Below are positions 15,451-31,992 of a stretch of 64,000 nucleotides of DNA, piece by piece. Position 1 is the stretch's first letter; the number at the start of each line of letters is the position of its first letter. The notes below the pieces were generated by a model, which was not told the origin of the DNA, made no database searches, and saw only the letters and a list, made by a program, of their open reading frames with translations. The position numbers and the translations under genes were made by a program. The stretch spans positions 2,973,629 to 3,037,628 of the forward strand of contig NZ_CP160906.1 of NCBI RefSeq assembly GCF_041080865.1. The letters are read 5' to 3'. The stretch comes from Psychromonas sp. MME1 (lineage in GTDB: Bacteria; Pseudomonadota; Gammaproteobacteria; Enterobacterales; Psychromonadaceae).

Positions 15451-15704
15451 TATGAGTACTCAAAACGTTGCAGGTAGTTAATGATCTTTTTATTGCTGAT
15501 TTTCCAAAATAAAAGGTAGATAAGATAAATCGCAAAAACTAACCATTTATGTTTGTTTTGCCCTTGATCAAGTTGCTCAAAGCTAAATGGGCCAAAGTAA
15601 GTATTCATTACATAAACATACAATAAGATGATAATTGGAATAATGAACACCGATGATAGCTTCCAAAGTAGCAGTAGTAATTGACCTAGACGAGCTCGTA
15701 GCAT
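15450..15704 (-). CDS. Small two-helix membrane protein of unknown function
   Basis: An 84-residue protein that I do not recognise. It has two predicted membrane helices, about residues 8-31 (LLLLLWKLSSVFIIPIIILL) and 49-66 (KWLVFAIYLIYLLFWKIS), and a short basic C-terminus. Its stop overlaps the rmuC start, so the two genes probably form an operon. It could be involved in the same membrane-anchored process as RmuC, but nothing in the sequence shows that. Confidence 0.7.
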   Translation of the reverse strand: MLRARLGQLLLLLWKLSSVFIIPIIILLYVYVMNTYFGPFSFEQLDQGQNKHKWLVFAIYLIYLLFWKISNKKIINYLQRFEYS

Positions 15705-15827
15705 GAGAGGTTCCTAGTGAGCGAACAGATAAAAAATAATCACGATAACTTTAAACAGTTACAACTAAGAAGTGAATATTTAATTATTACAAATCTGCTC
15801 TGTTCGTAAATTTTTAATTTATTTCGC

Positions 15828-15914
15828 TAAGTGAAACAATTAACTTACACTTTGTTGCTGTTTTGTTTTGTTGTGCTATATTTGTGTTTTGATCGAAACT
15901 TAAGTGAAACTTAA
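15828..15914 (+). promoter_or_regulatory. Repeated TAAGTGAAAC / GAAACTTAA elements upstream of the DeoR-type gene
   Basis: TAAGTGAAAC occurs at 15828-15837 and again at 15901-15910. GAAACTTAA occurs twice, 11 bp apart, at 15895-15903 and 15906-15914, touching the regulator start. Helically phased direct repeats at the start of a regulator gene look like an autoregulatory operator. This is inference from spacing only. Confidence 0.4.
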
Positions 15915-16683
15915 TGGTTAAGCGCAACAGTAAACAACGGCGTCATATTATTCTCCGCTTATTGGCCGAGCAGGGGGAAGTGAGCGTTGAACATTTGGCA
16001 TCCCATTTCGCCACCTCTGAAGTGACTATTCGTAAAGACCTCTCTGCATTAGAAAAAAATGGTTTACTACTGCGCCGTTATGGCGGTGCTATAACCGTAC
16101 CTGAAGAGCTAATACAATCAACCATGGAGCATTCATCTCCAAATAAGCAAAGAATGGCGCAAGCTGCTGCCAACCTGATTCGAGACAATAACCGTATCAT
16201 TATCGATAGTGGTAGTACAACGTCCGCGCTCATTGAAAAATTGAATGACAAACGCGGTTTGTTGGTGATGACTAACTCATTGTCCTTAGCCAATGCGATT
16301 CATGAGCTTGAGCATGAACCGACATTACTCATGACCGGTGGAACTGGGATCCCCACTCCGAATCCTTTCAAGGGCAAGTCGCGGAGCAGGTGTTACGCTT
16401 ATATGATTTTGATCAGTTATTTATCGGTGCCGATGGGATTGACCTTGCGCGTGGCACAACAACCTTTAATGAATTGACTGGATTGAGCAAGGTGATGGCA
16501 GAGGTTTCTCGCGAGGTTATTGTGATGGTTGAGGCCGATAAATTTGGTCGTCGCATTCCTAATTTAGAGCTTCCTTGGCAACAAATTTCAATACTAATTA
16601 GCGATGATAGATTACCTGCATCGGATTTACAAAAAATAACAGAGCAAGGGGTGCAGGTGATACTGACCCCTTATAGTAATTAA
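15914..16683 (+). pseudogene. DeoR-family regulator upstream of glmS, broken by a single-base frameshift
   Basis: The N-terminal frame (from 15914) has a DeoR helix-turn-helix, VEHLASHFATSEVTIRKDL (about residues 21-41), and begins the sugar-phosphate sensor domain (IIDSGSTTSALIEKL). At ACT-GGG-ATC (16343-16351) the frame is lost. The correct continuation, starting WDPHSES and running through DQLFIGADGIDLARGTTT to the stop at 16683, is in the frame one base back. Adding one T after 16345 (ACTTGG) restores a DeoR protein of about 256 residues. It is 21 bp upstream of glmS and probably regulates amino-sugar genes. It may be a sequencing error or true inactivation. Confidence 0.85.
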
Positions 16684-16704
16684 TTAAACTCTAAAGGCAA
16701 TATT

Positions 16705-18537
16705 ATGTGTGGAATAGTGGGCGCGGTAGCGCAAAGGGATGTAGCGGATATTTTACTTGAAGGATTAAAACGTCTTGAATACCGAGGTTATGATTCAGCG
16801 GGATTGGCTATCATTTCTGAAACAGGGGAATTACAACGTTTACGTCGTGTAGGTAAGGTGAAATCATTGGCTGATGCAGTGGCCGATCACCCTGTTTCTG
16901 GTGGGACGGGGATAGCACATACCCGTTGGGCAACGCACGGTGAACCAAATGAAGCTAATGCGCATCCACATACCTCTAATGACAGAATTGCAGTTGTGCA
17001 TAATGGTATCATTGAAAACCACGCAACATTACGTGACCAGTTACAACAGCAGGGTTACCAATTTACCTCCGATACCGATACCGAAGTAATTACTCACCTC
17101 GTTCATCTACACCTACAAACTGAGTCGTCACTACTCAAAGCGGTGCAAAAAACCGTCAAACAGTTGGAAGGAGCCTATGGCACCGTAGTGATCGATAAAA
17201 ATGATCCGCAACGTATAATCGTTGCTCGCTCTGGCAGCCCATTAGTCGTTGGTTATGGGCTTGGCGAGCACTTTGTTGCCTCCGATCAATTGGCATTGCT
17301 ACCTGTAACTCGTCGTTTTTCCTTTTTAGAAGAGGGAGATGTTGCTGAAATTACCCGTAAAAGCGTCAATATCTATGATTTAGATGGAAATAGTGTTGAA
17401 AGAGAGGTAACAGAGTCAGCCGTTAGCCATGATGCGGGTGACAAAGGGCAGTATAAACATTACATGCTTAAAGAGATTTATGAGCAACCCGTCGCGCTAC
17501 AACGTACTATTGAAGGGCGAATTAGCAATGGGAAAGTCGTTGATAATACCTTTGGTGAAGGGGCTGAAAAGTTACTCAAAGATGTTAAGCATGTACAAAT
17601 TATCGCCTGTGGTACAAGTTATCATTCAGCTATGACTGCGCGTTACTGGTTTGAAGCTATTGCCGGCGTTTCCTGTAATGTTGAAATTGCCTCCGAATTT
17701 CGTTATCGCAAATCGATGGTCATGCCTAACAGCCTGTTGGTTACGATTTCCCAATCGGGTGAAACGGCTGATACCTTAGCGGCATTGCGTCTTGCTAAAG
17801 AAATTGGTTATATGACTAGTTTAACCATTTGTAACGTTCCCGGTTCATCGCTGGTACGCGAATCGGATATGGCTTATATGATGAAAGCGGGTGCGGAGAT
17901 TGGCGTGGCATCAACCAAGGCATTTACCGTACAACTGGCTGGATTAATGATGTTAGTCGCAGCAATCGGTCGCCATAATGCGTTAACTGTACAAGGGGAA
18001 GCGGATATCGTCGCTGCGCTACAAAGCTTACCCGCAAAAATCGAGCAGGCATTAGGGATGGATAAAGCGATTCAGGAATTGGCCGAAGATTTTGCCGATA
18101 AACACCATAGCCTATTTTTAGGGCGTGGCGATCAATACCCAATCGCGATGGAAGGAGCGCTTAAACTTAAAGAGATCTCCTATATTCACGCCGAAGCCTA
18201 TGCCGCTGGTGAATTAAAACATGGTCCTTTGGCATTGGTGGATGCTGATATGCCAGTTATCGTCGTTGCGCCAAATAATGAGCTCGTTGAAAAATTAAAA
18301 TCAAATGTCGAAGAGGTACGTGCCCGTGGCGGTTTGATGTATGTTTTTGCCGATAAAAATGCCCATTTTAAAAGCGATAAAACAATGAAGGTATTAGAAG
18401 TACCAACCTGTGATCCTTTACTGGCACCGATCATCTACACCATTCCCTTACAACTGTTGAGTTATTATGTGGCACTCATAAAAGGTACGGATGTTGACCA
18501 ACCAAGAAATTTAGCCAAAAGCGTGACAGTGGAATAA
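16705..18537 (+). CDS. glmS: Glutamine-fructose-6-phosphate aminotransferase (isomerizing)
   Basis: A 610-residue GlmS, full length. It makes glucosamine-6-phosphate from fructose-6-phosphate and glutamine for cell wall and LPS synthesis. Cys2 of [11 protein letters not shown] is the N-terminal nucleophile of the glutaminase domain, and [13 protein letters not shown] is the glutamine site. The two SIS domains contain [29 protein letters not shown] and [39 protein letters not shown], and the C-terminus is the conserved NLAKSVTVE. The conserved 3' end is the target recognised by Tn7-type TnsD, and a Tn7-like end follows it here. Confidence 0.98.
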
Positions 18538-18562
18538 TTATTTATCGCTTTTACTATACAAT

Positions 18563-18592
18563 TGTAGGTCGACAATAAAGTTTGGTCACTTG
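18563..18592 (+). mobile_element. Tn7-like transposon end at attTn7 (terminal repeat)
   Basis: TGTAGGTCGACAATAAAGT begins 25 bp after the glmS stop. It matches the Tn7 terminus as I recall it (TGTGGGCGGACAATAAAGT) at 16 of 19 positions, including GACAATAAAGT, the start of the TnsB-binding site. Both the sequence and the position (Tn7 inserts about 25 bp after glmS) fit. No tns genes and no opposite end were found in the window, so this looks like one surviving end of a decayed or deleted element. Confidence 0.75.
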
Positions 18593-18630
18593 AAACCTTC
18601 GATGAGATTTAATCTATCGAAGGTTTTTTT
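18593..18630 (+). terminator. Rho-independent terminator after glmS
   Basis: A 10 bp stem (AACCTTCGAT paired with ATCGAAGGTT, 12-base loop) is followed by a run of T residues. It lies just inside the Tn7-like end, so glmS transcripts should stop here. Confidence 0.85.
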
Positions 18631-18786
18631 ATGTCTGATATAAATACCTATTTCATAATATTCTAAAAGTAGTTGATTTGATGTAGAGTTATTTGTGATG
18701 CGTTTGTTGTTATTGAAATTATTAAAGAGCAAAGTCATACATTAACAATGACTTAGGTTTGAGGTGGTGGTAAAATACCAGGTTAA

Positions 18787-18993
18787 AACAACAAAAAAAA
18801 ATCACAAGTTGGTTTCGGAGAAGCGTTATGGGATAGCGCCAATAAGTTACGTGGCAGTGTTGAATCCTCGGAATACAAGCACATTGTCTTATGCCTTATT
18901 TTCCTTAAATTTATCGTTACCATCTTGCAGGGAAGAAACAAAATGACTATTGGAAAGCACGGGTTTATTTTGCGGTTAGTTGTAGTTTATTAA
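18787..18993 (+). pseudogene. Type I restriction methylase HsdM, N-terminal relic
   Basis: The frame reads KKSQVGFGEALWDSANKLRG, then SVESSEYKHIVLCLIFLKFI. This is the characteristic start of HsdM N6-adenine methyltransferases (helical domain before the methylase core). Homology stops at about 18915, where a normal HsdM continues SDSFE; the frame ends at 18993. No start codon is in frame: a TAA lies at 18784, just upstream of the Lys-rich start. No hsdS, hsdR or catalytic NPPF motif is nearby. It is therefore a remnant of a type I restriction system in the island. Confidence 0.75.
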
Positions 18994-19319
18994 TTAAATA
19001 TGGATTTAAACCCATAGGAAAAACAGTAGATGAAAAGTGGCTTGTTTCAATCAACAAAGGTACAAGATTAATTGATTATAATTTTGACGAAGGCTAGCAA
19101 TATTTTGTGCTTGCAAATGGTAAAATCTGGTATGTCGATGAATTTCTAGAGCCCCCAGAAAAATATTTAAGTGGTGTTGATCCTGAAATAGATAATTTTG
19201 GATATATATCTGTACTAGAAATGTGGCTACATTTTAAAGACTTTATGAAAATAGGTGACGAAAACTCATTTAATAAAGCACAAGTGGCATTTAAAAATAA
19301 ATTAAAAGAACTCGTATAA
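18909..19319 (+). pseudogene. Hypothetical gene interrupted by an in-frame TAG
   Basis: One frame is open from 18909 apart from a TAG at 19095-19097. It reads GKKQNDYWKARVYFAVSCSL, then IKYGFKPIGKTVDEKWLVSI and NKGTRLIDYNFDEG, then the stop, then QYFVLANGKIWYVDEFLEPP and on to ELV at 19319. Coherent protein-like sequence on both sides suggests a gene broken by a nonsense mutation. I do not recognise the family. A GTG at 19107 could restart a 70-residue protein. Its upstream part overlaps the break point of the hsdM relic, so the 5' end was probably lost by the same event. Confidence 0.5.
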
Positions 19320-19384
19320 TGAGATGTAAAAATCGAAAGTTATACATCATAAAGTAATTTGAAAAAGGAAAGGTTTAGAACGAC

Positions 19385-20176
19385 ATGAATCGCACATCAG
19401 AGCCTACTCAGGCAAAATCCCAATTGGAATTAATTCAGCAGTGGCGCAGTACTTTAGAATGTTTAAAAGGTGATGTCGGTTTTCCTGCATGTATGGCTAA
19501 TGTGACAGGTGAAGAAAAAAGCAAACTTGATTCTGTTATAGAAGCCTTTAGTTATTTAGAGCAAAAAAATACTTTGTTAGATGAAAATGAAGACTTTTTA
19601 TTCTCAGAATCTGGGTTTATTAAGTACAAGGCTCTGCATATGCTTGTGTTTGATTATTTATCCAAGTTAACAAAGACGACAAACTCAGATGAAAAATCGA
19701 CGTTTTACTTTGTTTCTAGGAAAAAACATATCGCACAGCAAAAAAGGAGTAGTAATGGGACTCATTCTTTAATTCACTTTTTGCTTACCCTTGTTGCTCT
19801 CTTTATATTAGGTAGTGCTAGTTTGATGATGGTGGTGAAAACACAAAATAATTTGATTGTTATTCTGATTTTATTTTGGTTGTGTTTTTTGCACTTTAAA
19901 ACGGCTCTTAGGCTAGTAAAACCATTTAAAAAATCACCAATTAGTCCATTCAAGTTCCGAGTTAGTCTCTTAGGAATACACTCGTTAAATACACTATTGA
20001 AAGTGAGTTTGTTATGTCTTGTACCCATTGCTTTAACAGCTAATTTTAAACCCTATTGGGTTGATGATGTGATTATTATCAGCTTGTCTATTCTATGTTT
20101 ATTTCATTATAAGGCGAATAATCTTGTTGATGAAACCCCTATCACTTCAGCAGCAAAAGAGTCAGCTAATGTTTAA
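19385..20176 (+). CDS. Four-helix membrane protein of unknown function (island operon gene 1)
   Basis: A 263-residue protein with no family I recognise. The first 120 residues are soluble and mostly helical. Four hydrophobic segments follow at about 128-151, 156-172, 201-219 and 228-242, so it should be an inner-membrane protein with a cytoplasmic N-terminal domain. GGAAAGG lies upstream of the ATG. Its stop overlaps the next start (20169) by 8 bp, indicating an operon with the two following genes. A membrane protein in a defence-type island could be an effector, but this is speculation. Confidence 0.75.
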   Translation: MNRTSEPTQAKSQLELIQQWRSTLECLKGDVGFPACMANVTGEEKSKLDSVIEAFSYLEQKNTLLDENEDFLFSESGFIKYKALHMLVFDYLSKLTKTTNSDEKSTFYFVSRKKHIAQQKRSSNGTHSLIHFLLTLVALFILGSASLMMVVKTQNNLIVILILFWLCFLHFKTALRLVKPFKKSPISPFKFRVSLLGIHSLNTLLKVSLLCLVPIALTANFKPYWVDDVIIISLSILCLFHYKANNLVDETPITSAAKESANV

Positions 20177-20585
20177 ATGGGTTTCGATATTAATAAGTAT
20201 TTTATTTAGTGCAAGCACGGTTGCATCTATAAATTTAAATCTTGCTTGTAAAGAAAAGAAAGAGCAGCAAATGTCTCTATTAACAGAAATGTCTACCTCT
20301 GTCAGTGAGGCTCACTTAGCAGGACAATGTACAGGATATTGGTCTTTTGAAATAGTTCCTATAAAAGAATCATGTTCAGAATTTGTAGAACAAAAAAATG
20401 CACTTTTACCCGCTTTCAGCACATCTGTTTCAGAAGCGCATTATGCAGGTATTTGTGTTGGGGTTATTTATCGAATTGCACAGAACTGTGGCACCCATGT
20501 GCGTCAGAATGAATATTTAAGAATTGCTGAAAATGCGAGTTCTTTAGAGGCAATTAGAGAGAGACTTTCTTGTTATGGCGGGTAA
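20169..20585 (+). CDS. Small secreted protein with two STSVSEAHxAGxCxG repeats (island operon gene 2)
   Basis: Starting at the ATG at 20169 gives a 138-residue protein with a signal peptide (MFKWVSILISILFSASTVAS); an upstream ATG at 20124 would lack it and overlap gene 1 by 53 bp. The mature part has two similar units, MSTSVSEAHLAGQCTGYW and FSTSVSEAHYAGICVGVIY, with regularly spaced cysteines. It should be a periplasmic, disulfide-bonded protein. The Cys-Gly pattern is loosely like Rap1a/Tai immunity proteins, which I offer only as a thing to test. It overlaps the next gene by 11 bp. Confidence 0.7.
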   Translation: MFKWVSILISILFSASTVASINLNLACKEKKEQQMSLLTEMSTSVSEAHLAGQCTGYWSFEIVPIKESCSEFVEQKNALLPAFSTSVSEAHYAGICVGVIYRIAQNCGTHVRQNEYLRIAENASSLEAIRERLSCYGG

Positions 20586-21246
20586 AAACACAAGTATTGC
20601 CGCCATTGCCTGCGAAGCATTAGGTATTCAAAGAAATCTTTTACCAGAGCGTTTAAGAGGTCGTCTGAATTATTACGTTAAAGATAAAAAGCTTAAAGCT
20701 AAATTGCTTGATCAGAAAGATGCCAATTCAGAATCTGTTGATTATGTGCCTAAACCTATTAAGCCGGGCAATCATACTTTTATCCGTAATCTTGTTATTT
20801 TAGATACTTTATTTGAAGATAAAAAATTAGTGATTAACTGGTTGAGTGGCGAAGCAATGGAGGCCGCTAGTTTTGACCAATTTGCCAATGAGTGGAGGGC
20901 AAAGAAAATATTATTTCAGGCGCTTGATAAACGTGTGACTGATTTGCGCGCTTTTTTATTAAGTGGTGAAAAAGATTGGTCGCAGGATGAAATCCCTTAT
21001 CCTTTTAATGAAGGCAAATATAGTTCGATGGAGATGATTGCTGCTTCAATTGAATTTGATGAAAACTCAAGCGCATACGATTTAGCGTTAAAAGCGGTTA
21101 TTCAAGGTCAGTTTGGTGTGCTTGGTAAGCTAATAGAAAACAATCCTCAGGCTTTTATTAGCGAACATGGTGAATGGTTGGTACAGCTTTATCATAGTAA
21201 AGAAGCTGAATATGAAGAGTACAGCCAATTACTTAATAAGTATTAA
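20575..21246 (+). CDS. Hypothetical soluble protein (island operon gene 3)
   Basis: A 223-residue soluble protein, not recognised. It has a basic N-terminal third (RNLLPERLRGRLNYYVKDKK), a central helical region with VINWLSGEAMEAASFDQFAN, and an acidic C-terminus ending EYEEYSQLLNKY. The start overlaps the stop of the preceding gene by 11 bp (translational coupling). Its last codons and the DNA behind them recur at 22097-22215 upstream of the viperin gene. So this gene's 3' end belongs to a duplicated segment, and a second copy of the gene was probably once present. Confidence 0.7.
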   Translation: MAGKNTSIAAIACEALGIQRNLLPERLRGRLNYYVKDKKLKAKLLDQKDANSESVDYVPKPIKPGNHTFIRNLVILDTLFEDKKLVINWLSGEAMEAASFDQFANEWRAKKILFQALDKRVTDLRAFLLSGEKDWSQDEIPYPFNEGKYSSMEMIAASIEFDENSSAYDLALKAVIQGQFGVLGKLIENNPQAFISEHGEWLVQLYHSKEAEYEEYSQLLNKY

Positions 21247-21330
21247 ATAACTGCTTATTTTCCCTTTTTTGTGAATTTCACAGTTTGATACTTGCTCCTG
21301 AAGTCACCGCACAGTGCGGTGATATAAGGA
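21211..21330 (+). repeat. Leader repeat copy 1: 3' end of gene 3, promoter-like region and hairpin
   Basis: About 120 bp that recur at 22097-22215. The best conserved part runs from CTTTTTTGTGAATTTCACAG through TTTGATACTTGCTCCTGAAG to the hairpin TCACCGCA-CAG-TGCGGTGA (21304-21322, 8 bp stem). It ends 10 bp before the first kinase gene, which follows after AAGGA. TTGATACT could be a -10-like element, though no good -35 is seen. The same leader precedes the viperin gene, so the two transcripts may be co-regulated. Confidence 0.75.
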
Positions 21331-21339
21331 TAAAGAAAA

Positions 21340-21945
21340 ATGAATAAATTTATTGTTTTTGAAGGTCTTGATGCTTGTGGAAAAACAACGCTGAGCTCAC
21401 TTTATGCAAAACAGAGAAATTCCGTTGTTTATTCCGCAGTGGTGGAAGAATCACAGGAACTGAGAAAAGTTATTGACTGTTATCAGTCAAAGGAAAGCGC
21501 TTTGTTATTTTTTTTGTTGAATAACTTTTTAAAGAGTCATGAGGTCTCTGGTGCTTTACAGTCGGGGGATGTCATACTAGACAGATACATATTTTCAACC
21601 TTGGCATACCAGAGCATTATGCTTGGAGAAAATACAGTTAGGAGCCTCTTTGATACCCTTAATATTGCTGAAAGACTTATTCTTCCTGACGTCATCGTTT
21701 TTGTTAAGGCTGATGCGGAAACGATAAAGAGCAGGATAAAAGCCAGAGTTGGTAATGGCCAATGGTACGGTGATGAAATAACACAAAATAACTGTGTAGA
21801 GAGTCCCTACAAAAAGATTTTTAAGTGGTTTGATATTCCCATTGTAGAGATTGATACATCAGAAAAGCATGGTCGCTCGATAGCTGAAAATTATCAGCTG
21901 ATGCAAGAAAAGATTGATCGTGTTCTTTCTGCTGGAAAAAATTAA
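21340..21945 (+). CDS. Thymidylate-kinase-fold nucleoside monophosphate kinase, copy 1
   Basis: A 201-residue kinase with the P-loop FEGLDACGKTT (residues 7-17) and the DRYIFSTLAYQ motif (81-91) of thymidylate kinases, followed by a lid segment near QWYGDEITQN. The housekeeping tmk is normally longer and lies elsewhere, so this is an extra enzyme. Vertebrate CMPK2, the genomic partner of viperin, has the same fold. I infer that it supplies nucleotide substrate to the viperin encoded 380 bp downstream. A near copy is at 23736. It has its own leader upstream and a terminator 48 bp after its stop. Confidence 0.88.
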   Translation: MNKFIVFEGLDACGKTTLSSLYAKQRNSVVYSAVVEESQELRKVIDCYQSKESALLFFLLNNFLKSHEVSGALQSGDVILDRYIFSTLAYQSIMLGENTVRSLFDTLNIAERLILPDVIVFVKADAETIKSRIKARVGNGQWYGDEITQNNCVESPYKKIFKWFDIPIVEIDTSEKHGRSIAENYQLMQEKIDRVLSAGKN

Positions 21946-21990
21946 TACAAAATAGGAAACGTTTTTGGTTATCCGATCCAAATGGTTATA

Positions 21991-22025
21991 AAGCCCATTA
22001 TCAGTTCTCTGGTAATGGGCTTTTA
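21991..22025 (+). terminator. Terminator after kinase copy 1
   Basis: GCCCATTA (21993-22000) pairs with TAATGGGC (22013-22020), followed by TTTT. It separates the kinase transcript from the viperin transcript, so the viperin should depend on its own copy of the leader. Confidence 0.8.
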
Positions 22026-22132
22026 TGTCACTGAAAGATGATAAGCATGATAAACCTGCACAACTAATCCCAATTGAGTTAGATGTAGAAGACCGCTATG
22101 AAGAGTATAAATAACTGCAAAATAAATATTGA
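22025..22132 (+). pseudogene. Remnant of a second copy of island operon gene 3 (3' end)
   Basis: A 29-codon frame from 22025 ends YEEYK-stop. Reading through the TAA gives YEEYK-stop-LQNKY-stop, which lines up with the YEEYSQLLNKY-stop end of the gene at 20575. The DNA match then continues into the leader repeat. So a nonsense-containing tail of a duplicated gene 3 survives in front of the viperin leader. It could in principle express a short peptide. Confidence 0.55.
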
Positions 22133-22215
22133 ATAATTTTTATTTTCTCTTTTTTGTGAATTTAACAGTTTGATACTTGCTCCTGAAGTCACCGCATAGT
22201 GTGGTGATATTAGGA
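22097..22215 (+). repeat. Leader repeat copy 2, upstream of the viperin gene
   Basis: Second copy of the leader at 21211-21330. The hairpin here is TCACCGCA-TAG-TGTGGTGA (22189-22207). Compared with copy 1 the stem has one C-to-T change that turns a G-C pair into G-U, so pairing is kept. AGGAG follows at once as the ribosome site of a 37-codon ORF. The rest of the leader (TTTTTTGTGAATTT, ACAGTTTGATACTTGCTCCT) is nearly identical. Confidence 0.75.
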
Positions 22216-22222
22216 GTACAAT

Positions 22223-22336
22223 ATGTATCATTTAATTCTTTTTTCGTTACTCAATACGACTGATCAACTTTCCCCATCTGACACTGTTATTAAAACAGAC
22301 CTTCTTGCACTTGTACTAGGAGGTTCTCATGAGTAA
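22223..22336 (+). CDS. 37-residue ORF overlapping the viperin start (putative leader peptide or small partner)
   Basis: An ATG at 22223, six bases after AGGAGT, opens a 37-codon frame (MYHLILFSLLNTTDQ to the C-terminus LGGSHE). Its stop (TAA, 22334-22336) overlaps the viperin start in ATGAGTAA. The good ribosome site and the 8 bp overlap suggest it is translated and coupled to the viperin. The N-terminus is hydrophobic, but the peptide is too short for family assignment. It could equally be a coupling peptide with no function of its own. Confidence 0.5.
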   Translation: MYHLILFSLLNTTDQLSPSDTVIKTDLLALVLGGSHE

Positions 22337-23300
22337 TTCATTTGACGAATTAGTAATTAATTATCACGTTACAGAGATCTGTAATTATTCATGTAAGTTT
22401 TGTTATGCAAAGTGGGATCGTCCAAACGAAATTCATACTCAAGGTTACAACGCCGAATTGATGCTAGAAAAGCTTGCTCGCTATTTTTTCAATGAAGCTG
22501 GTAATAAAGTTAAATCGGTCTTTCCTTATAAAAGTGTTCGCATTAATTTTGCAGGTGGTGAGCCACTAATCCTTAAAAACCGTTTTTCACAACTCATTAT
22601 AAAAGCTAAGGAGCTTGGTTTTAACTTATCGCTTATAACTAATGGGCATTATCTAACCAAAGAGTTTGTCGATAATTATGGTGCTTTATTCTCGATGATT
22701 GGTATTAGTTTTGATAGTCAATCTGCTGATGTGAGGAAAAATATTGGAAGAATAGATCGTAAGGGTAATTCATTTGATGAAGTTGATTTAATTAATACCG
22801 TTGAACGCCTTCGCAAGATCAATCCATCTATTTCGATAAAGGTAAATACGGTTGTTAATAGTTTAAATTATCAAGAGTCATTTGTAGGGTTAATTACACA
22901 GTTGCAGCCTGATAAATGGAAGGTCTTTCAGGTTCTTCCTGTATTAAATAATCATCTGCTAGTGACTGATAAACAGTTTACTGAGTTTGGTGAACATCAT
23001 GCTCAATTAGAGGGTGTGATGGTCATTGAGGATAACGATGCGATGACTAATTCATATTTAATGATCAATCCCCAAGGTCGATTTTATCAGAATAGTTCAA
23101 CACAAGTAGGTTATCAATATGGCGAATTGATTCTGGATGTTAGCGTTGATCAAGCATTAAGTGTCTGCGAGATTAATTGGGAAACATTCACTAGTCGTTA
23201 TCAGAAGCCTTCTACTGATAACGCAATTAAGCTTATTAGTAACAATGAATATATATTCAAACAAAACGAACAGTTAGCCTCTTTAAGTCAAGGAGAATAG
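22329..23300 (+). CDS. Prokaryotic viperin (pVip), radical SAM nucleotide dehydratase
   Basis: A 323-residue radical SAM protein. The CNYSCKFC cluster motif (Cys18, 22, 25) follows VINYHVTEI. Further viperin-like blocks are RINFAGGEPL (GGEP at 76-79), LSLITNG, IGISFDS, IKVNTVVNSLN, KWKVFQVLPV, NSYLMINPQGRF and LILDVSVDQAL, in the same order as in human viperin (for example RWKVFQCLLI and SYLILDEYMRF). Viperins convert NTPs to 3'-deoxy-3',4'-didehydro chain terminators that block viral RNA synthesis; bacterial ones protect against phage. AGGAGG precedes the ATG. The substrate base cannot be told from sequence. Flanking NMP kinases support the call. Confidence 0.9.
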   Translation: MSNSFDELVINYHVTEICNYSCKFCYAKWDRPNEIHTQGYNAELMLEKLARYFFNEAGNKVKSVFPYKSVRINFAGGEPLILKNRFSQLIIKAKELGFNLSLITNGHYLTKEFVDNYGALFSMIGISFDSQSADVRKNIGRIDRKGNSFDEVDLINTVERLRKINPSISIKVNTVVNSLNYQESFVGLITQLQPDKWKVFQVLPVLNNHLLVTDKQFTEFGEHHAQLEGVMVIEDNDAMTNSYLMINPQGRFYQNSSTQVGYQYGELILDVSVDQALSVCEINWETFTSRYQKPSTDNAIKLISNNEYIFKQNEQLASLSQGE

Positions 23301-23301
23301 C

Positions 23302-23338
23302 ATGAATACCACTTCTGATGACAAACAATTTGTGGCTC
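23302..23338 (+). pseudogene. 5' stub of a gene following the viperin, cut by an IS relic
   Basis: An ATG at 23302, two bases after the viperin stop TAG and behind AAGGAG, starts a frame MNTTSDDKQFVAL. The frame then runs into the end of an IS3-family relic at about 23339. The tight spacing and good ribosome site suggest a third operon gene once followed the viperin. Its identity cannot be told from 13 residues. Confidence 0.5.
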
Positions 23339-23548
23339 TGAATCGACACTATTTTACTAGGCACTTTCTAGCCTTTCTTGATAGCGCTTTTCATAGTCTA
23401 CTGGCGACAATAAATTATTGGAACCATGTTTGCGTTTGTTGTTATAAAAAATTTCAATATAATCGAATATTTCGCTTCGCGCATCTTCCCTTGTAGAGTA
23501 GATCTTCTTCTTAATACGCTCTCGTTTTAATAATTGAAAAAAGCTTAA
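23339..23548 (-). mobile_element. IS3-family insertion sequence relic (3' end of transposase plus terminal repeat)
   Basis: On the minus strand a frame reads SFFQLLKRERIKKKIYSTRE, then DARSEIFDYIEIFYNNKRKHG and NLLSPVDYEKRYQERLESA-stop (stop at 23357-23359). This is the C-terminus of an IS3-family OrfB transposase, after the DDE core. The bases beyond the stop (plus-strand TGAATCGACACTATTTTACT from 23339) look like a terminal inverted repeat of that group. Upstream of SFFQ the homology ends, so only about 210 bp of an element of roughly 1.2 kb remain. Confidence 0.8.
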
Positions 23549-23667
23549 GCCCAAACCTCATCGGAGATAAGCAAGCACAGGATAAATTTAAAAGCGTTAT
23601 ACCAGCTAAGATGATTAAAAAAGTAAATAGAGGGCGTTCAAATTTTTGTGTATGGGTAATGCATTAG
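23545..23667 (+). pseudogene. C-terminal coding remnant beyond the IS relic
   Basis: In the same forward frame as the stub at 23302 the DNA reads LSPNLIGDKQAQDKFKSVIP, then AKMIKKVNRGRSNFCVWVMH and stop. It is protein-like and lacks a start. It may be the other part of the gene interrupted by the IS element. I do not recognise it. Confidence 0.35.
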
Positions 23668-23735
23668 GTATCCTGCATGAGGTCTAAGCGCCCTTCAAAA
23701 AAGCGACTATTACATTATAAAAAATGAGAATAAAA

Positions 23736-24341
23736 ATGAATAAATTTATTGTTTTTGAAGGACTGGATGCCTGCGGAAAAACAACGTTAAGCTCACTTTA
23801 TGCAAAAGATAGAAGCTCAGTTGTTCATTCTGCTGTAGTGAAAGAAGCAAAGGCATTACGAAAGGTCATTGACTCCTACCAGTCAAAGGAGAGCGCTTTA
23901 CTGTTTTTTTTGTTGAACAACTTATTAAAGAGTCATGAAGTCTCGGGTGCATTAGAATCTGGAGATGTGGTACTGGACAGGTATATCTTTTCAACCTTGG
24001 CATACCAGACAATTATACTTGAAGAAGATATAGTCAAGCAGATCTTTGATACGCTTAAAATTACCCAAAATATTCTTCTTCCTGAAGTAATTGTCTTTGT
24101 TAAGGCTGATGCTGAAACTATAAACAGTAGGATAGAGACCAGAGGAGGCACACTTCAGTGGTACGGCGATGCTATAACGCAAAATAATTGTGTAGAAACA
24201 GCCTACAAAAAAATATTTCAGTGGTTTGATATTCCCATTGTAGAGATTGACACATCAGAAAAACATGGTCGGTCTGTGGAAGAAAATTATCAGCTAATGA
24301 AAGACCAGATTGATCTCGTTCTCTCTGGAGGGAGTAATTAA
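23736..24341 (+). CDS. Thymidylate-kinase-fold nucleoside monophosphate kinase, copy 2
   Basis: A 201-residue paralogue of the kinase at 21340, about three quarters identical by eye and colinear without gaps. The P-loop GLDACGKTT and DRYIFSTLAYQ are unchanged; most differences are at residues 92-115 and in the lid (GGTLQWYGDAITQN). I chose the ATG at 23736, not 23724, because it matches the MNKFIVFEG start of copy 1. It lacks the hairpin leader of copy 1, so it may depend on viperin-operon transcription through the IS relic or on another promoter. Both copies appear intact. Confidence 0.87.
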   Translation: MNKFIVFEGLDACGKTTLSSLYAKDRSSVVHSAVVKEAKALRKVIDSYQSKESALLFFLLNNLLKSHEVSGALESGDVVLDRYIFSTLAYQTIILEEDIVKQIFDTLKITQNILLPEVIVFVKADAETINSRIETRGGTLQWYGDAITQNNCVETAYKKIFQWFDIPIVEIDTSEKHGRSVEENYQLMKDQIDLVLSGGSN

Positions 24342-24504
24342 AACTAGGTTCAGTTCAGTATTTATAATGGGCATGCTTAAACATTATTGTTGTGGCTTTA
24401 GAATTCAGACATACAGATCATGGCCCATATTAGCTCCTTGTTAATAAGTTATTAGATGTTAGGCGTCAACTAGCTTGGCCGTTATGGTCTTGGGCGGGGA
24501 TTTG

Positions 24505-24524
24505 CTGCTTACATTTGTAAGCAG
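24505..24524. other. Short perfect hairpin downstream of the HD-GYP gene
   Basis: CTGCTTACA-TT-TGTAAGCAG, a 9 bp stem, lies 12 bp beyond the 3' end of the HD-GYP gene. It has no T-run on either strand, so I do not call it a terminator with confidence. The remainder of 24342-24535 holds nothing else I recognise; the right boundary of the island may lie here. Confidence 0.35.
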
Positions 24525-24535
24525 GCTAAGTGCCT

Positions 24536-25582
24536 TTACTCTGCTACTCTTAACTCTGAGCTTGTATCACTATAAATCGATTTAATCTTATCAATGCATT
24601 CAAAAAAGGCGCTGACTAATTGTGGGTCAAACATTGTGCCGCTGCCTTTGCCAATAAAGTCTATCGCATCCTCTAATGGCCAACCCTGTTTATAGGGCCT
24701 TGTGGTGGTTAGGGCATCAAACACATCGGCAATGGAAACAATTCGAGCTGATAAGGGAATTTCCTCGCCTGCTAACTTATAGGGGTAACCAGTGCCATCC
24801 CAACGCTCATGGTGGCTTAATGCAATTTCATGTGCCATTACCAACAAGGGAGAATCATCTCCACTTAAAATTTCACCGCCAAAAATAGGGTGTTGCTCTA
24901 TGACTAAGCGCTCATCGGGAGTGAGTCGCCCTGGTTTTAGTAGCACGGCATCAGGCACGCCGATTTTACCTATATCATGCATGGGGGCTGCATCCACTAA
25001 TAATTTGCACCATGGTTTAGTCATGCCGATATGTTCAGCTAATGTTTTGCTGTAGTGGCTGACGCGTACCAAATGAAAACTTGTTTCGTTATCGCGAAAT
25101 TCTGCGGCTTTGCCAAGTCGATAGATAAGGTTGCAACGACTTTGCTCTAGCTCCTGCGTGCGTTTTTTCACCATTTCTTCGAGGTGGCGTTCGCGATTTG
25201 CCAATTTAAGTTGGGTTTCAACGCGTAATTTAAGGACGATTGGACTAATAGGTTTGGAGATATAATCCACTGCACCGAGTGTAAAACCTTTCGTTTCATC
25301 TACTGTTTCTGTTTTGGCAGTGACAAACATAATTGGAATGTTTGAGGTTATGGTGTTCATTTTGAGCTGTTTGCAGGTTTCAAAGCCATCCATTTCTGGC
25401 ATCATCACATCAAGTAAAATCAAATCCGGTAGGGGGTGCTTCTCGGCAAGTTGCAGTGCTCTTTTACCTGATGTCGCGGCACGAATGGTATAATCTTTTG
25501 ATAATGTATTATGGATAAGTTGGATGTTTTCAGGGACATCATCAACGACCAAAATAGTTATGTTCTGTTGCTTTGATTCCAT
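24536..25582 (-). CDS. Response regulator with HD-GYP cyclic-di-GMP phosphodiesterase domain
   Basis: A 348-residue two-domain protein of the RpfG type. The receiver domain (residues about 8-125) has the acidic pair DD14-15, phospho-acceptor Asp58 in LILLDVMMPEMDGFETC and Lys110 in DYISKPISP. A coiled linker follows. The HD-GYP domain (about 155-335) has the metal-binding HD (202-203, AAPMHDIGKIGVPD) and HHERWDGTGYPYKL, ending with IVSIADVFDALTTTRPYK. It should hydrolyse cyclic-di-GMP when phosphorylated. It is divergent from the hybrid kinase at 25785, its likely partner. Confidence 0.93.
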   Translation of the reverse strand: MESKQQNITILVVDDVPENIQLIHNTLSKDYTIRAATSGKRALQLAEKHPLPDLILLDVMMPEMDGFETCKQLKMNTITSNIPIMFVTAKTETVDETKGFTLGAVDYISKPISPIVLKLRVETQLKLANRERHLEEMVKKRTQELEQSRCNLIYRLGKAAEFRDNETSFHLVRVSHYSKTLAEHIGMTKPWCKLLVDAAPMHDIGKIGVPDAVLLKPGRLTPDERLVIEQHPIFGGEILSGDDSPLLVMAHEIALSHHERWDGTGYPYKLAGEEIPLSARIVSIADVFDALTTTRPYKQGWPLEDAIDFIGKGSGTMFDPQLVSAFFECIDKIKSIYSDTSSELRVAE

Positions 25583-25784
25583 TTTCTTGCCTTGGGGATA
25601 TATTAAGTAAAAAACCCTCTGTAATATGTTAATACAAAGTAAAGTGAGTTAGATAAATAATTGCAAATTGTTGATGCAAAGTAAATGGACATGAAGTGTT
25701 ATAATAACGGATTACTTCTCATTATTCCATATCCATCCCTTAAGGGTAGTCGATATCTCTTTTAAATGTCATTGTGGGCCAAAA

Positions 25785-28700
25785 GTGAAAGAAACAATTC
25801 AAAATAATAACCTTAAGATAAAAAATCTGTTTTCTGGCTGTTTTATTGCCGCAAAGAGACTCTTTTTGTTAGTTGTCATCTGTTTTTGCGTCATAAAACC
25901 AACTTTTGCAGACCATGCCGATGTAAAAAACATAAGCCAGATTCAACCTTTTAGCCAATATTTAAAGCGTCCTAAAGTAACCATGATTTTAGATACAAAG
26001 CGCAGCTATTGGCAGCAAGTTGCTAAGTTTTCCAATATTGCAGCGGAGGACCTAAATATTGAATTGAATATCGTTTATGGTGATGGAACGGTTAATACCC
26101 TGCTTGATTTAGGTAAGCAAGCGATTAAAGAGCAAGTTCAAGGGCTTATTTTTGTGCCTATTTTAGGCCAAGGGGATGAGTTGCTCGATGCGGCTAATCA
26201 GCATGATATTCCTGTGATCACCTTACAATCAGACTTTAGGCAATCATCAACTTTATTAAGGGGGCTTTTCTCGAATTGGATAGGGCGTGTTCATGGCGAC
26301 GACTTCGTGACGGGCAGAAAAATTATTCAGCAATTGTTACCTCCGAGCAATATTGAGGATGATGAAACGCTGCTGATTATTGCCGGGTTGGAGAGTAGTG
26401 AGGAGGTGCAGAAGCGTATAAAGGGGATTGAAAAATATGTTAAAGAGCGTAATCCCAACACACAGCTCACTGTTGCTTATACTGATTGGAGTGCCGAGCA
26501 AGCCTTAGCTGCTTATCAAAATGCAGGGCCACAACAAAGCGTTATTGTGATGAATGCGGAAATGGCTTTAGCCGTTGCGGAGGCGGCAAAAAACGACCCA
26601 AGTGATGTAAAGCCTAAAATTGCGGCGATGAATTGGTTGCCTGGGATTGCTGATGCAATACAGGATAAAAGTATATATGCCGCCGTTGCAAATACCGAGT
26701 TTTATGGTGCCTTCGCCGTGGTGCTCATGTTTGATTATTTTCATGGTAAGGAAGCACAGCTACAAAACTTTGATTTTTCTATTTCGCCTTTGCTTGTGGC
26801 ACAAAATAGTTATATGGAATATCAAAAGCTATTAAGTTTTGATGATTTGCGGCCTGATTTTTTTCAGGTTTCACGGGCTTTAAATGATGATTTACTGGTG
26901 GCTGATTTTCGCGTTGAAAGCTTACTCCCTAACTCTCAAACGCAGTTATTTATAGCGACCTTATCACCACAGGAAAAAGCGTTTATTTTAAATCACCGTC
27001 TTATTCGGGTGGGGGTCGACCCAAAGGGGGGGCCATTAGATTTTATTGATGGTAACTCACATCATCAAGGGGTAATGGCCGATCTTATCAGAGAGGTTGT
27101 CCCCATCTTGCCGCTTAAATTTATCTTTGAAAATAAAGGATCCTGGAAAAATGCGCGGCAGGGGGTATTAAATGGACAGTTAGAGATGCTCTCTATTGTT
27201 GCCAATCACCCCTTGCGTCAAGAGGATATGTTACTGACTAATGAGTTATATCGAGTACCTCCGGCTATTATTACCCTCGATAGTACATACGGGATAGATA
27301 GCCTTAGCGATTTAAGCGGTAAACGGGTGAGTGTGGTTGATGGCAATATTACTCAATTGCAGCTGTTGGAGGATTATCCTGATATTCAATTGGTGCCATT
27401 TAAAAGTGTCGAGCTAGCCTTGCAGGCCGTGGTCGATAAAAAAACCACAGCGGCATTTGTGATTGCTCCCTCGGCAACGCCATTTCTTAACGCGGTTAAG
27501 TTTAATAATTTGCAAATTGTTGCCTTTTCCGATTATCGTTTTGGTCTCTCCATTGGAGTCCGTAATGACTTGCCCGAGCTTCAGAGTATATTAAATAAAG
27601 CTTTTTTAACGCTTCCTGAGAATAGAATTAAAGAAATTGAAAGTCGCTGGATACGTGACCAATACACTGTTGGTTTTAATAAACAGCAGGTGTGGGAGTG
27701 GGTGCAGCAGGCTGCATTTTCGGTTGTATTGATTCTTGTTTTTTTTAGTATATGGGCAAGTCGCTTAAAGCAAGAGGTTTCTCACCGAAAATTGACCGAA
27801 GCGCAATTAATAGCCAGTGCCAAAAAGTTCCAAGTGTTGTTTGAATCGGCGATTGAGCCTTGCGTTATATTGGATGAAAAAGAGAATATTTTTCAAATAA
27901 ACTCATCATTTGCTGAGTTGTTCGGGCTAACAGAAGTTAAGGCGATAGAAGGGAAAAGTCTTGCAGCTATTCACGCTGGCAACCCTAAGGTAAATGATAT
28001 ACATGAGCAATTTGCTCATGCCTTTAAGTTTGGCAGCTGTGCATTTGAAGTTGAAATGACAATATTAAATGGTGCGACTATTCCGATAGAAGTGCGTTTA
28101 AAGAAAATAGAGCTGGATGGGGAATTCTATATTCTCGCTTCTTTTCAAGATTTGAGCGAGCGGCGTCTGGTTAGTCAATTAATAGAAAGTGAGCGAGATA
28201 CCTTAAAGCAAGTGTTGGGTAATAGCCCCGTTGGGGTGTGGATGTGTCGCGATAAAACATGCCTGTATGTTAATCGCACTATGCTGAAAATGACAGGATT
28301 AAGGGTGGGTAATTCTTTATTAGATATTTTTGCTAATCACGAAGACTATATGAAAAATATCCATAGTATTGATTCTACATCAACGGATGTTGTCTTCGAA
28401 ACGATCATATTAGATGTCGATGGTAATAAACGTAATATGCTGATCACCACTTATCATGCTCAATATGATAATGGGTATGCTAATCTCTGCTGGGCGCAGG
28501 ACATTACCGAAAGTAAGCAAGCTCAATTAGAGCTCGCTACCGCTAAAGAGGGGGCTGAAGCAGCGAATGAAGCTAAGTCAAACTTCTTAGCCAATATGTC
28601 CCATGAAATACGCACCCCGATGAATGCGATTTTGGGTATGTCTTACTTGGCTCTACAAACAGACCTTTCTAGTAAGCAGCGTGATTATGTCTCGAAAGTG

Positions 28701-30737
28701 CATCAAGCCGCTTCTTCGTTGCTCGGTATCGTTAATGATATTTTAGATTTTTCAAAAATTGAAGCACATAAATTAGATATTGATAATATTGACTTCGACT
28801 TGTCCGATTTATTGAGTAATCTGCTCAATGTTTTAAGCCATAAACTCGATGAAAAGCAGATTGAATTTATTATCAATTTATCCAAAGATACGCCGCGTTA
28901 TTTACACGGTGATCCACTTCGCTTAAATCAAATTTTGATTAATTTTTGTAATAATGCCATTAAATTTTCACCAAATAATAGCGATGTATTGTTGAGTTGC
29001 ACCGTCAATAGCATAGGAAAAAATGCCGAACTGACTTTTTGCGTGGAAGATTTCGGAATTGGTATCTCGGAAAATCAGCAACGTCGATTATTCCGCTCCT
29101 TTGAGCAAGGAGATGCTTCGACATCTCGTAAGTTTGGTGGTACTGGGCTAGGGTTGGCTATCAGTAAGCGGTTGGCGGAGTTATTAGGGGGAGAAGTTTG
29201 GTGTGAAAGTGAATTAGGTCAAGGTAGCCGTTTTTATGTCAAGGTTCGCCTTGCCGTTGTTTCACATTTTGAATCAGAGGTTATATTTCAAGCGCTCGCG
29301 CAGCAGACGCTTATTTTAGCAGGCCTACCAGCGCGGGTAAGTTATATGCTGGCATCCTATGCGAAAATGGTCAATATGGATGCGATTGCATGTGACCATG
29401 AAAATTTAAAGGCAACCCTTGCGCAGGCAACTGATCGCGCTGTTGTTATGTGTGAAATTAGCGCTGTTAATGAATCGTTACTACAGACTTTATCCTTATA
29501 CCCGGAGACCAAACTACTGACCATTGGGCGTGTTAGTGAAGAGGAACTCGTCGATGATATTATTGCGCGTTATCCACAGACTCGTTTTCAAAGTAAACCT
29601 TTAACTCCGGTTGCCGTTGGCAACACGTTAATTGCCCTGTTAACTGATGACTCCGCTTTGACCAAACCCAAGGAGGACCATTCATTAGGCGCACTGAAAA
29701 AGAAGCTTGCAGGTGCGAATGTCTTACTGGTTGAGGACAATTTACTTAACCAACAGTTGGCAAAAGAGTACCTTGAACAAGCGAATATAAACGTCACCAT
29801 CGCCAATAACGGGCAGGAGGCGGTAAATCTAACGACACAACATCACTACGATTGCGTGTTAATGGACGGGCAAATGCCGGTGATGGATGGTTATCAGGCG
29901 ACAAAAAAAATCCGCGAGCGCTACTCGGCAGATCAATTACCCATTATCGCGATGACAGCTAATGCACTGAATGAAGATGTTGATCGCGCACTCAATTGTG
30001 GGATGAACAGCCAAATAAACAAACCGGTGCATATAAAAAATCTCTATCTTGAAATGGCGAAGTGGATCACAGTAACCGAAGTTAAGCCTTTGTTGCTGTT
30101 GGATAGCAAAGAAAATCGGTCATCGGAGGCGTTGACGTTACCGAAGATTGCGGGACTTAATTGTGAACATTTAAAAATGATGGTTAATGATGACATCCCT
30201 TTTGCGATCAAATTACTGGAGTTATTTGTCAGCTCTACGCGAAAATTATCTGCAGAAATTGAAGAGAGTATTCAGCAACGAGATGTAACTTGGCTGCTAC
30301 GTTCTTTACATACATTAAAAGGTATCTCTGCAAATATCGGTGCAGAGCAGCTTAGTAAGATTGCTTTACGGCATGAAAATGAGTTAAAAGCACAACAGGA
30401 AATTGATTTTAGCGACTGCTCTGAAAAGCTATTAAATCTACAATTAGAGCTGAATCAGCTAGTTGATGGCCTTGCACTATGGTTGTCAAGTAGACAGCAG
30501 CACGTTCAGCTAATAGAGATGGATGATCTGCAACTGAGACAATTACTTAATGACCTTCAACAGAGTTTAGAAGAAAGCAGTACAGACGCTTTAGATTGGA
30601 CCGAACAATTATCACAGGTGCCACAGTTACAATCGTATCGAAAAACATTAAATCAATTAAAAAAAGATGTAGAACAGTTTAATTTTGATCAAGCGTTGAA
30701 TAAATTAAGTGAGTTACGCACGAAAATGAATAGTTAA
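25785..30737 (+). CDS. Giant hybrid sensor histidine kinase with two periplasmic binding domains
   Basis: A 1650-residue protein with a GTG start. Order: signal/anchor (about 24-42); sugar-binding-like type I periplasmic domain (about 60-350); SBP_bac_3 amino-acid-binding-like domain (about 400-625); membrane helix (about 640-657); two PAS domains (about 680-795 and 805-915); HisKA with His940 in ANMSHEIRTPMN; HATPase with N-box FCNNAIKFS, DFGIGI and GTGLGL; a degenerate receiver-like stretch (about 1170-1290); receiver with Asp1361 (LMDGQMPVMDGY) and Lys1413; HPt with His1509 (RSLHTLKGIS). It probably phosphorylates the divergent HD-GYP regulator, linking two extracellular signals to cyclic-di-GMP. 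Ligands are unknown. Confidence 0.93.
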   Translation: MKETIQNNNLKIKNLFSGCFIAAKRLFLLVVICFCVIKPTFADHADVKNISQIQPFSQYLKRPKVTMILDTKRSYWQQVAKFSNIAAEDLNIELNIVYGDGTVNTLLDLGKQAIKEQVQGLIFVPILGQGDELLDAANQHDIPVITLQSDFRQSSTLLRGLFSNWIGRVHGDDFVTGRKIIQQLLPPSNIEDDETLLIIAGLESSEEVQKRIKGIEKYVKERNPNTQLTVAYTDWSAEQALAAYQNAGPQQSVIVMNAEMALAVAEAAKNDPSDVKPKIAAMNWLPGIADAIQDKSIYAAVANTEFYGAFAVVLMFDYFHGKEAQLQNFDFSISPLLVAQNSYMEYQKLLSFDDLRPDFFQVSRALNDDLLVADFRVESLLPNSQTQLFIATLSPQEKAFILNHRLIRVGVDPKGGPLDFIDGNSHHQGVMADLIREVVPILPLKFIFENKGSWKNARQGVLNGQLEMLSIVANHPLRQEDMLLTNELYRVPPAIITLDSTYGIDSLSDLSGKRVSVVDGNITQLQLLEDYPDIQLVPFKSVELALQAVVDKKTTAAFVIAPSATPFLNAVKFNNLQIVAFSDYRFGLSIGVRNDLPELQSILNKAFLTLPENRIKEIESRWIRDQYTVGFNKQQVWEWVQQAAFSVVLILVFFSIWASRLKQEVSHRKLTEAQLIASAKKFQVLFESAIEPCVILDEKENIFQINSSFAELFGLTEVKAIEGKSLAAIHAGNPKVNDIHEQFAHAFKFGSCAFEVEMTILNGATIPIEVRLKKIELDGEFYILASFQDLSERRLVSQLIESERDTLKQVLGNSPVGVWMCRDKTCLYVNRTMLKMTGLRVGNSLLDIFANHEDYMKNIHSIDSTSTDVVFETIILDVDGNKRNMLITTYHAQYDNGYANLCWAQDITESKQAQLELATAKEGAEAANEAKSNFLANMSHEIRTPMNAILGMSYLALQTDLSSKQRDYVSKVHQAASSLLGIVNDILDFSKIEAHKLDIDNIDFDLSDLLSNLLNVLSHKLDEKQIEFIINLSKDTPRYLHGDPLRLNQILINFCNNAIKFSPNNSDVLLSCTVNSIGKNAELTFCVEDFGIGISENQQRRLFRSFEQGDASTSRKFGGTGLGLAISKRLAELLGGEVWCESELGQGSRFYVKVRLAVVSHFESEVIFQALAQQTLILAGLPARVSYMLASYAKMVNMDAIACDHENLKATLAQATDRAVVMCEISAVNESLLQTLSLYPETKLLTIGRVSEEELVDDIIARYPQTRFQSKPLTPVAVGNTLIALLTDDSALTKPKEDHSLGALKKKLAGANVLLVEDNLLNQQLAKEYLEQANINVTIANNGQEAVNLTTQHHYDCVLMDGQMPVMDGYQATKKIRERYSADQLPIIAMTANALNEDVDRALNCGMNSQINKPVHIKNLYLEMAKWITVTEVKPLLLLDSKENRSSEALTLPKIAGLNCEHLKMMVNDDIPFAIKLLELFVSSTRKLSAEIEESIQQRDVTWLLRSLHTLKGISANIGAEQLSKIALRHENELKAQQEIDFSDCSEKLLNLQLELNQLVDGLALWLSSRQQHVQLIEMDDLQLRQLLNDLQQSLEESSTDALDWTEQLSQVPQLQSYRKTLNQLKKDVEQFNFDQALNKLSELRTKMNS

Positions 30738-30748
30738 TTCCCTAAAGA

Positions 30749-30777
30749 AAGCCGCTACTATCGCTAGCGGCATTTCT
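30749..30777. terminator. Bidirectional terminator between the hybrid kinase gene and corA
   Basis: GCCGCTA (30751-30757) pairs with TAGCGGC (30765-30771), with AAAGAAA on the left and ATTTCT on the right. It sits between two convergent genes and could serve both. Confidence 0.7.
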
Positions 30778-30790
30778 ATAGGGCATTAAA

Positions 30791-31762: not shown

Positions 31763-31826
31763 AACGTTAACCTTTGCCCATAGCAGTAATGAGGGTGATA
31801 GTGTTAAATCGTAAATATATACCCAT

Positions 31827-31864
31827 GTTACCTCAAGATGCCAGACAAAGTATCTTGAGGTAAC
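31827..31864. repeat. Perfect 13 bp inverted repeat upstream of corA
   Basis: GTTACCTCAAGAT (31827-31839) and ATCTTGAGGTAAC (31852-31864) flank a 12-base centre. It lies between corA and the 3' end of nasA, with no T-run. It may be an operator for corA, or part of a nasA transcript end. Confidence 0.6.
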
Positions 31865-31935
31865 TTGGATATAAAGTGTTTAGACTAACGATTAATAATA
31901 ATTAAGCAAGGTGATCATGGTTTGATTTGCGAGCT

Positions 31936-31982
31936 GCGCCCTGCCGGGCAAGGAAGTTGCCCTTAGCATTTCGGCGGGCTTT
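31936..31982. other. GC-rich nested hairpin downstream of nasA
   Basis: In an AT-rich region, GGGCAA (31946-31951) pairs with TTGCCC (31957-31962), inside an outer GCCC/GGGC plus GCC/GGC pairing (31938-31945 with 31973-31979). It starts 11 bp beyond the nasA stop. It could stabilise or end the nasA message, or be a repeat element. No clear T-run follows. Confidence 0.4.
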
Positions 31983-31992
31983 CCAAAATAGC

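Follow-up and report, generated by a model that had tools for sequence, protein, structure and literature searches.

A prokaryotic viperin between two VakA-type kinases of different lineages, with a repeated leader, in Psychromonas sp. MME1

The subject of this analysis is a viperin gene that sits between two kinase genes, K1 and K2, in Psychromonas sp. MME1. It lies in a window of 64,000 nucleotides (contig NZ_CP160906.1, positions 2,973,629-3,037,628, forward strand; assembly GCF_041080865.1), to which the coordinates below refer. All three genes are present where an initial annotation of the same DNA had placed them. That annotation read the locus as a viperin flanked by kinases with different nucleotide preferences. 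Its observation has held up and its interpretation has done so in part, the preferences being what has not; it overlooked the separate lineages of the kinases, the broken gene that follows viperin, a repeated leader and three conserved upstream genes. The central features are these.

21248..21340, + strand: leader copy 1, before K1; a predicted hairpin at about 21296-21330 pairs the Shine-Dalgarno (SD) sequence
21340..21945, + strand: K1, VakA-type kinase of the thymidylate-kinase (TMPK) fold, upstream position; sequence type of Psychromonas downstream kinases
22133..22225, + strand: leader copy 2, before the small open reading frame (ORF) and viperin; a predicted hairpin at 22178-22218 pairs the SD of the small ORF
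22223..22336, + strand: small ORF of 37 residues (MYHLILFSLLN...), overlapping the viperin start by 8 nt; likely a leader peptide coupled to viperin
22329..23300, + strand: prokaryotic viperin (pVip), by profile matches, structure match and tree; radical S-adenosylmethionine (SAM) motif CxxxCxxC at residues 18-25
23736..24341, + strand: K2, VakA-type kinase of the TMPK fold, downstream position; not preceded by a leader copy; lineage other than that of K1

Prokaryotic viperins were reportedly described by Bernheim et al. in 2021. The window protein matches NCBIfam NF038283 over its full length at 337.4 bits (curated cut-off 180) and the PADLOC pVip profile (PDLC02904) at 340.8 bits; its radical SAM cysteines are C18, C22 and C25, and it also matches viperins of known structure (7n7h, E 1.3e-25). 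The MoaA profile reaches 45.6 bits, below its cut-off of 284. In a tree of 39 rows, which does not include experimentally characterised pVips by name, the protein groups with pVips, and four MoaA-like rows separate at 100/100; a fifth, L022, sits on a very long branch and is not placed securely. A position outside the pVip clade, with MoaA-like enzymes, was thus looked for and did not occur, and the viperin identity proposed at the outset stands. According to passages of PMC10732462 and PMC11249213, viperins convert nucleoside triphosphates to 3'-deoxy-3',4'-didehydro (ddh) forms (ddhNTPs), which terminate RNA synthesis. The window viperin is a predicted ddh-nucleotide synthase that would act against phage.

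K1 and K2 are single-domain proteins of 201 residues that both carry the P-loop GLDACGKTT and a DRY motif and have viperin as their neighbour. Family searches and fold matches to thymidylate kinases agree with the TMPK fold first suggested for them. Against the PADLOC VakA profile (PDLC02911) they score 224 and 235 bits, respectively, and against PDC-M51B 72 and 73 bits. Nor are they the housekeeping dTMP kinase, the other refuting outcome that was looked for: TIGR00041 gives 68.5 and 68.7 bits, under its curated cut-off of 83.25, and the tmk of this genome is a separate gene (199.3 bits). Kinases of VakA type adjoin viperin in relatives as well (Psychromonas, Pseudoalteromonas and a Nostoc plasmid).

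A pVip with one kinase is already known; a pair of VakA genes at one pVip is rare, as had been supposed. Among 80 named pVip loci (the best 80 of 284 confirmed, with flanks of up to 8 kb, some contigs being shorter), seven have a VakA-family kinase, one apiece, and none has two. In the 394 genomes of the order that were scanned (G numbers denote these genomes, L numbers fetched loci and P numbers metagenomic proteins), VakA-type matches occur in six, with two copies only in Psychromonas sp. MME1. Six of 72,556 plasmid records match this kinase type, each at a single place.

The two kinases are, by sequence, of different VakA lineages. In a tree of 74 rows (proteins of 190-230 residues among P0121-P0195, with P0133, which is K2, left out), K1 is sister to metagenomic P0121 (100/98), inside a starred clade of 11 rows (97/98) that includes the downstream kinases of Psychromonas G021 and G019. 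K2 falls outside that clade, with metagenomic P0138, P0149 and P0150 (86/91, below the star limit), and the Pseudoalteromonas upstream kinases form a clade of their own (100/91). Thus K1 has the upstream position seen in Pseudoalteromonas but the Psychromonas sequence type, and K2 has the downstream position seen in Psychromonas but a different sequence type. Position and lineage being uncoupled, kinases of this family of loci have changed place or been swapped. Since K1 and K2 are 78% identical and of different lineages, they are not a recent duplication; their pairwise nonsynonymous and synonymous divergences (dN 0.120, dS 0.879, dN/dS 0.137) are those of an old split under purifying selection.

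Around these genes lie the following.

19385..20176, + strand: TM263, predicted membrane protein with several helices, which opens the upstream set; Pfam gives no family over cut-off
20169..20585, + strand: SP153, small protein with a signal-peptide-like start (ORF list start 20124; relatives begin at the in-frame ATG 20169)
20575..21246, + strand: D223, 223 residues, all-helical, function not assigned; homologues in 5/394 genomes
21990..22023, + strand: terminator-like hairpin after K1 (-22.4 kcal/mol, z -6.6), not reported by the consensus scan
22097..22146, + strand: 50-nt copy of the D223 3' end and leader start, a scar of duplication or exchange
23302..23340, + strand: opening 13 codons of the DUF4145-Sel1 gene found after viperin in relatives; remainder missing
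23357..23554, - strand: C-terminal fragment of an IS3-family transposase, by family matches

TM263 homologues stand at the equivalent place in L031, L032, L045, L046 and G028 (L224), and the five genomes with D223 comprise four pVip-VakA loci and one PDC-M51 locus (G028). In Psychromonas G021 and G019 the order is TM263, SP153, D223, leader, small ORF, viperin, DUF4145-Sel1 gene and VakA. In Pseudoalteromonas L045 and L046, VakA directly follows the first leader and, after about 0.6-0.7 kb, a second leader precedes the small ORF, viperin and a DUF4145-Sel1-SEC-C gene; P. shioyasakiensis L234 has this order and both leaders. Over 19565-21931, as far as the kinase, the window runs collinear with the Pseudoalteromonas block. 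The relatives thus have a single VakA, upstream (L045, L046, L234) or downstream (G021, G019), and the window has both.

The leader is an element of 93 nt, part of which is a direct repeat of 76 nt at 93% identity. There are two copies in the entire genome and none before K2. Rfam 15 returns no match at gathering score within 18500-24600. The leader core (at most 3 mismatches) occurs in 5 of the 394 genomes, which are also the five with D223, and leaders precede the kinase as well as viperin in L045, L046 and L234. K1 starts directly after its leader; viperin is reached via the small ORF. In an alignment of nine leaders the SD is paired by the outer of two stems, CTCCTGA/TTAGGAG; the inner one is TCACCGCA/TGCGGTGA. 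Of the cells of the alignment 90.8% pair, as against 33.8-49.0% after sliding. The K1 copy has a fold z-score of -5.0 and the viperin copy one of -7.8. A model built from the nine leaders finds 20 matches in 80 sources: eleven strong ones (the nine inputs and both L234 copies), five weak ones, each immediately ahead of another viperin (L047, E 0.0045; L058, 0.028; L063, 0.032; L074/L075, 0.86) and four antisense to known leaders. On these folds the leader would hide the ribosome-binding site and gate translation.

The small ORF is likely a leader peptide translationally coupled to viperin. Constraint hardly separates its assigned frame from frame +1. It is only against G028 that the first 11 codons favour the assigned frame (proportions of nonsynonymous and synonymous differences, pN 0.11 and pS 0.92; frame +1, 0.27 and 0.67), and 25 codons favour it weakly (pN 0.37, pS 0.69).

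Gene families, gene order, the lineage difference, the repetition of the leader, the truncation after viperin and the conservation of the three upstream genes are established at the level of sequence; ddh-nucleotide synthesis, the kinase substrate, defence and translational gating are predictions built on it. We consider it rather probable that a viperin-family radical SAM protein, the predicted anti-phage ddh-nucleotide maker, is supplied by two VakA kinases of different lineages, the second probably redundant, and that K1 and viperin stand behind an SD-hiding leader. From a ribonucleoside triphosphate viperin would make a ddh-nucleotide that acts as a chain terminator, and the kinases would likely keep it supplied with phosphorylated nucleotide, raising the triphosphate pool. 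K2 would be a redundant arrival from a related locus, not a partner with a substrate of its own. The leader hairpin would hide the SD of K1 and of the small ORF and viperin, keeping translation low until some signal opens it; viperin would then be translated by coupling to the leader peptide. Several points weigh against this scheme. The DUF4145-Sel1 gene after viperin has been destroyed, so that the system may be failing; pairwise dN/dS leaves room for recent loss of constraint on one kinase; and A156P of K1 lies at a column otherwise invariant among 22 rows. As to the leader, its covariation score is reached by 43 of 500 shuffles, and both double changes in the stem come from one sequence, that of G028.

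The locus might instead be a rearranged pVip locus in decay, in which recombination between variants and IS3 left an extra kinase, and K2, perhaps the whole system, is being lost. K2 lies behind the DUF4145-Sel1 gene that is cut to 13 codons and behind the IS3 scar, and it has no leader; the 50-nt D223-end copy scores 22.5, which none of 500 shuffles reached (best 20.0). Other Psychromonas bear similar marks: the kinase of G019 is interrupted by one stop, in G006 the DUF4145 gene is broken and the kinase gave no match, and G003 has a VakA pseudogene with five stops (contig 20, 36317-36772), near which viperin, D223 and leader gave no matches. Viperin, K1, K2, D223, SP153 and TM263 are, however, all open with low pairwise dN/dS. 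Where 95% or more of the other rows agree on a residue, K1 deviates twice (A156P and K189Q, the latter common to K1 and its sister P0121) and K2 not at all. We regard decay as possible but doubtful.

A second alternative concerns the leader, which could be a DNA operator or an mRNA-stability element rather than a translational switch. Its stem is also a DNA palindrome, a further dyad, TGTGAA-TTCACA, lies upstream of the stem, and the covariation is weak against shuffles, as mentioned. Yet the outer stem specifically pairs the SD, which is predicted paired in 9 of 9 folded leaders (weakest in the window K1 copy, W_K1, mean about 0.8), and the G028 leader does so through other letters (UUUCUG/CAGGAG); the operator or stability role is accordingly the less probable one.

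A division of labour, in which K1 and K2 phosphorylate different nucleotides and one viperin makes two or more ddhNTPs, as the initial annotation's different preferences would imply, is improbable: prokaryotic viperins can produce ddhCTP, ddhUTP and ddhGTP, some making two or three (passages of PMC10732462), and K1 and K2 are 22% diverged overall and differ in the lid at 130-146, but these differences fall at family-variable columns (position 146 is E, K1-like, in 11 of 22 aligned members and A, K2-like, in the other 11), and different substrates are not supported because each lid type occurs elsewhere as the sole VakA match beside a viperin (E146 in Psychromonas G021; A146 in Pseudoalteromonas L045/L046 and Vibrio L061/L089).

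A wider setting for the locus comes from G028, of another family of the order. There the three upstream genes and leader are followed by a small ORF, a ParE-like protein, a 415-residue radical SAM protein of B12 type that scores 567 bits for PDC-M51A, and a kinase that scores 242 bits for PDC-M51B and 84 bits for VakA; viperin gave no match. The modules behind the shared genes are thus viperin and VakA in Psychromonas and Pseudoalteromonas and a B12-type radical SAM protein and kinase in G028. In Moritella-type G024 and G135 one locus holds diverged upstream genes, a viperin whose C-terminus carries a ParE-like domain, and the PDC-M51 pair of radical SAM protein and kinase. PDC-M51A occurs in seven of the 394 genomes: these three, G089, G190 and G369, where it stands behind other upstream genes, and G098, where it is alone, with no kinase match. 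The window genome has no PDC-M51A match at E <= 1e-40, so its locus does not belong to PDC-M51. It is a tentative suggestion, and an unlikely one as a whole, that the three genes and SD-hiding leader form a reusable RNA-gated defence chassis that takes different modules of radical SAM enzyme and nucleoside monophosphate kinase, with PDC-M51 a second, non-viperin maker of antiviral nucleotides and the window a module exchange caught in progress. In 4 of the 5 D223 genomes it is viperin that the chassis carries, and G028 is the one clear case of exchange. The link to PDC-M51 predicts action on nucleotides also for a radical SAM enzyme of B12 type paired with a viperin-type kinase.

Compared with known pVips, the locus shares the radical SAM family, both profile matches and a kinase neighbour; it differs in its two VakA lineages, three conserved upstream genes, common SD-hiding leader and leader peptide. 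Other VakA loci, such as the kinase-viperin pair of the Nostoc plasmid, lack its two copies, one on either side of viperin. It resembles PDC-M51, whose kinase is a VakA relative, but the radical SAM partner there is not a viperin. Vertebrate CMPK2 has the TMPK fold, and the vertebrate RSAD2-CMPK2 pair also joins viperin to a TMPK-fold kinase; here, in contrast, the kinase is single-domain and present twice. Passages of PMC11249213 give CMPK2 an independent bacterial origin and put a CMPK2-like kinase next to 15% of bacterial viperin genes. Passages of PMC10865869 place hicA or relE beside pVip, so that a toxin-like gene adjoins viperin, and the ParE-like domain of the Moritella fusion is comparable; a domain search of the window viperin found no such domain. 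What appears new is the repeated leader, outside Rfam, before K1 and viperin, the three conserved upstream genes and the other module that stands behind them and the leader in G028, which add regulation and module exchange to a known pair. A leader common to enzyme and kinase, as a predicted translation gate, offers a handle on how a chain-terminator synthase is kept quiet before infection.

The cluster lies directly downstream of glmS (16705-18537), a site that Tn7-like elements use; no Tn7-type transposase was seen among the ORFs of 14000-32000. It looks horizontally acquired, because viperin is 89% identical to that of G021 and GlmS just 70%, and because G001, whose GlmS is 93% identical, has unrelated genes after glmS and no viperin match. 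Before glmS, a DeoR-type regulator gene is split into two overlapping frames (15914-16477 and 16390-16683), as by a frameshift (15914-16683).

Some minor observations remain. The Moritella-type viperins with the C-terminal ParE-like domain, followed by the PDC-M51 pair, lie at L034 8277-9446 (PF24732, 27.0 bits, cut-off 24.4) and L035 8716-9873. Three PDC-M51 loci (L247 3052-7638, L249 8221-12790, L250 8537-13107) have another upstream set in common, proteins of about 897, 309 and 194-203 residues and one of 104-106 (ParE-like in L247). The general proposition that pVip genes hide their SD was rejected as such and is kept as a lead. Of 67 pVips with an SD, 35 do so, as do 18 of 91 controls (p 2e-5; the set excludes L048 and 12 of the remaining 79, which lacked a usable start and SD), but much of the excess is a matter of composition, the non-redundant count being 16/32 versus 15/83 and shuffling of the upstream 44 nt already giving 12.3/32. 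Long hairpins with the SD in the 3' arm do stand just before the viperin start in L050, L072, L078, L083, L087 and others. Ahead of the hairpin, L050, L069-L070, L072, L074, L078, L083 and others have a second palindrome, of GTGCA-n-TGCAC type and in many cases preceded by a T run; the window has TTGTGAATTTCACAG at that place upstream of viperin.

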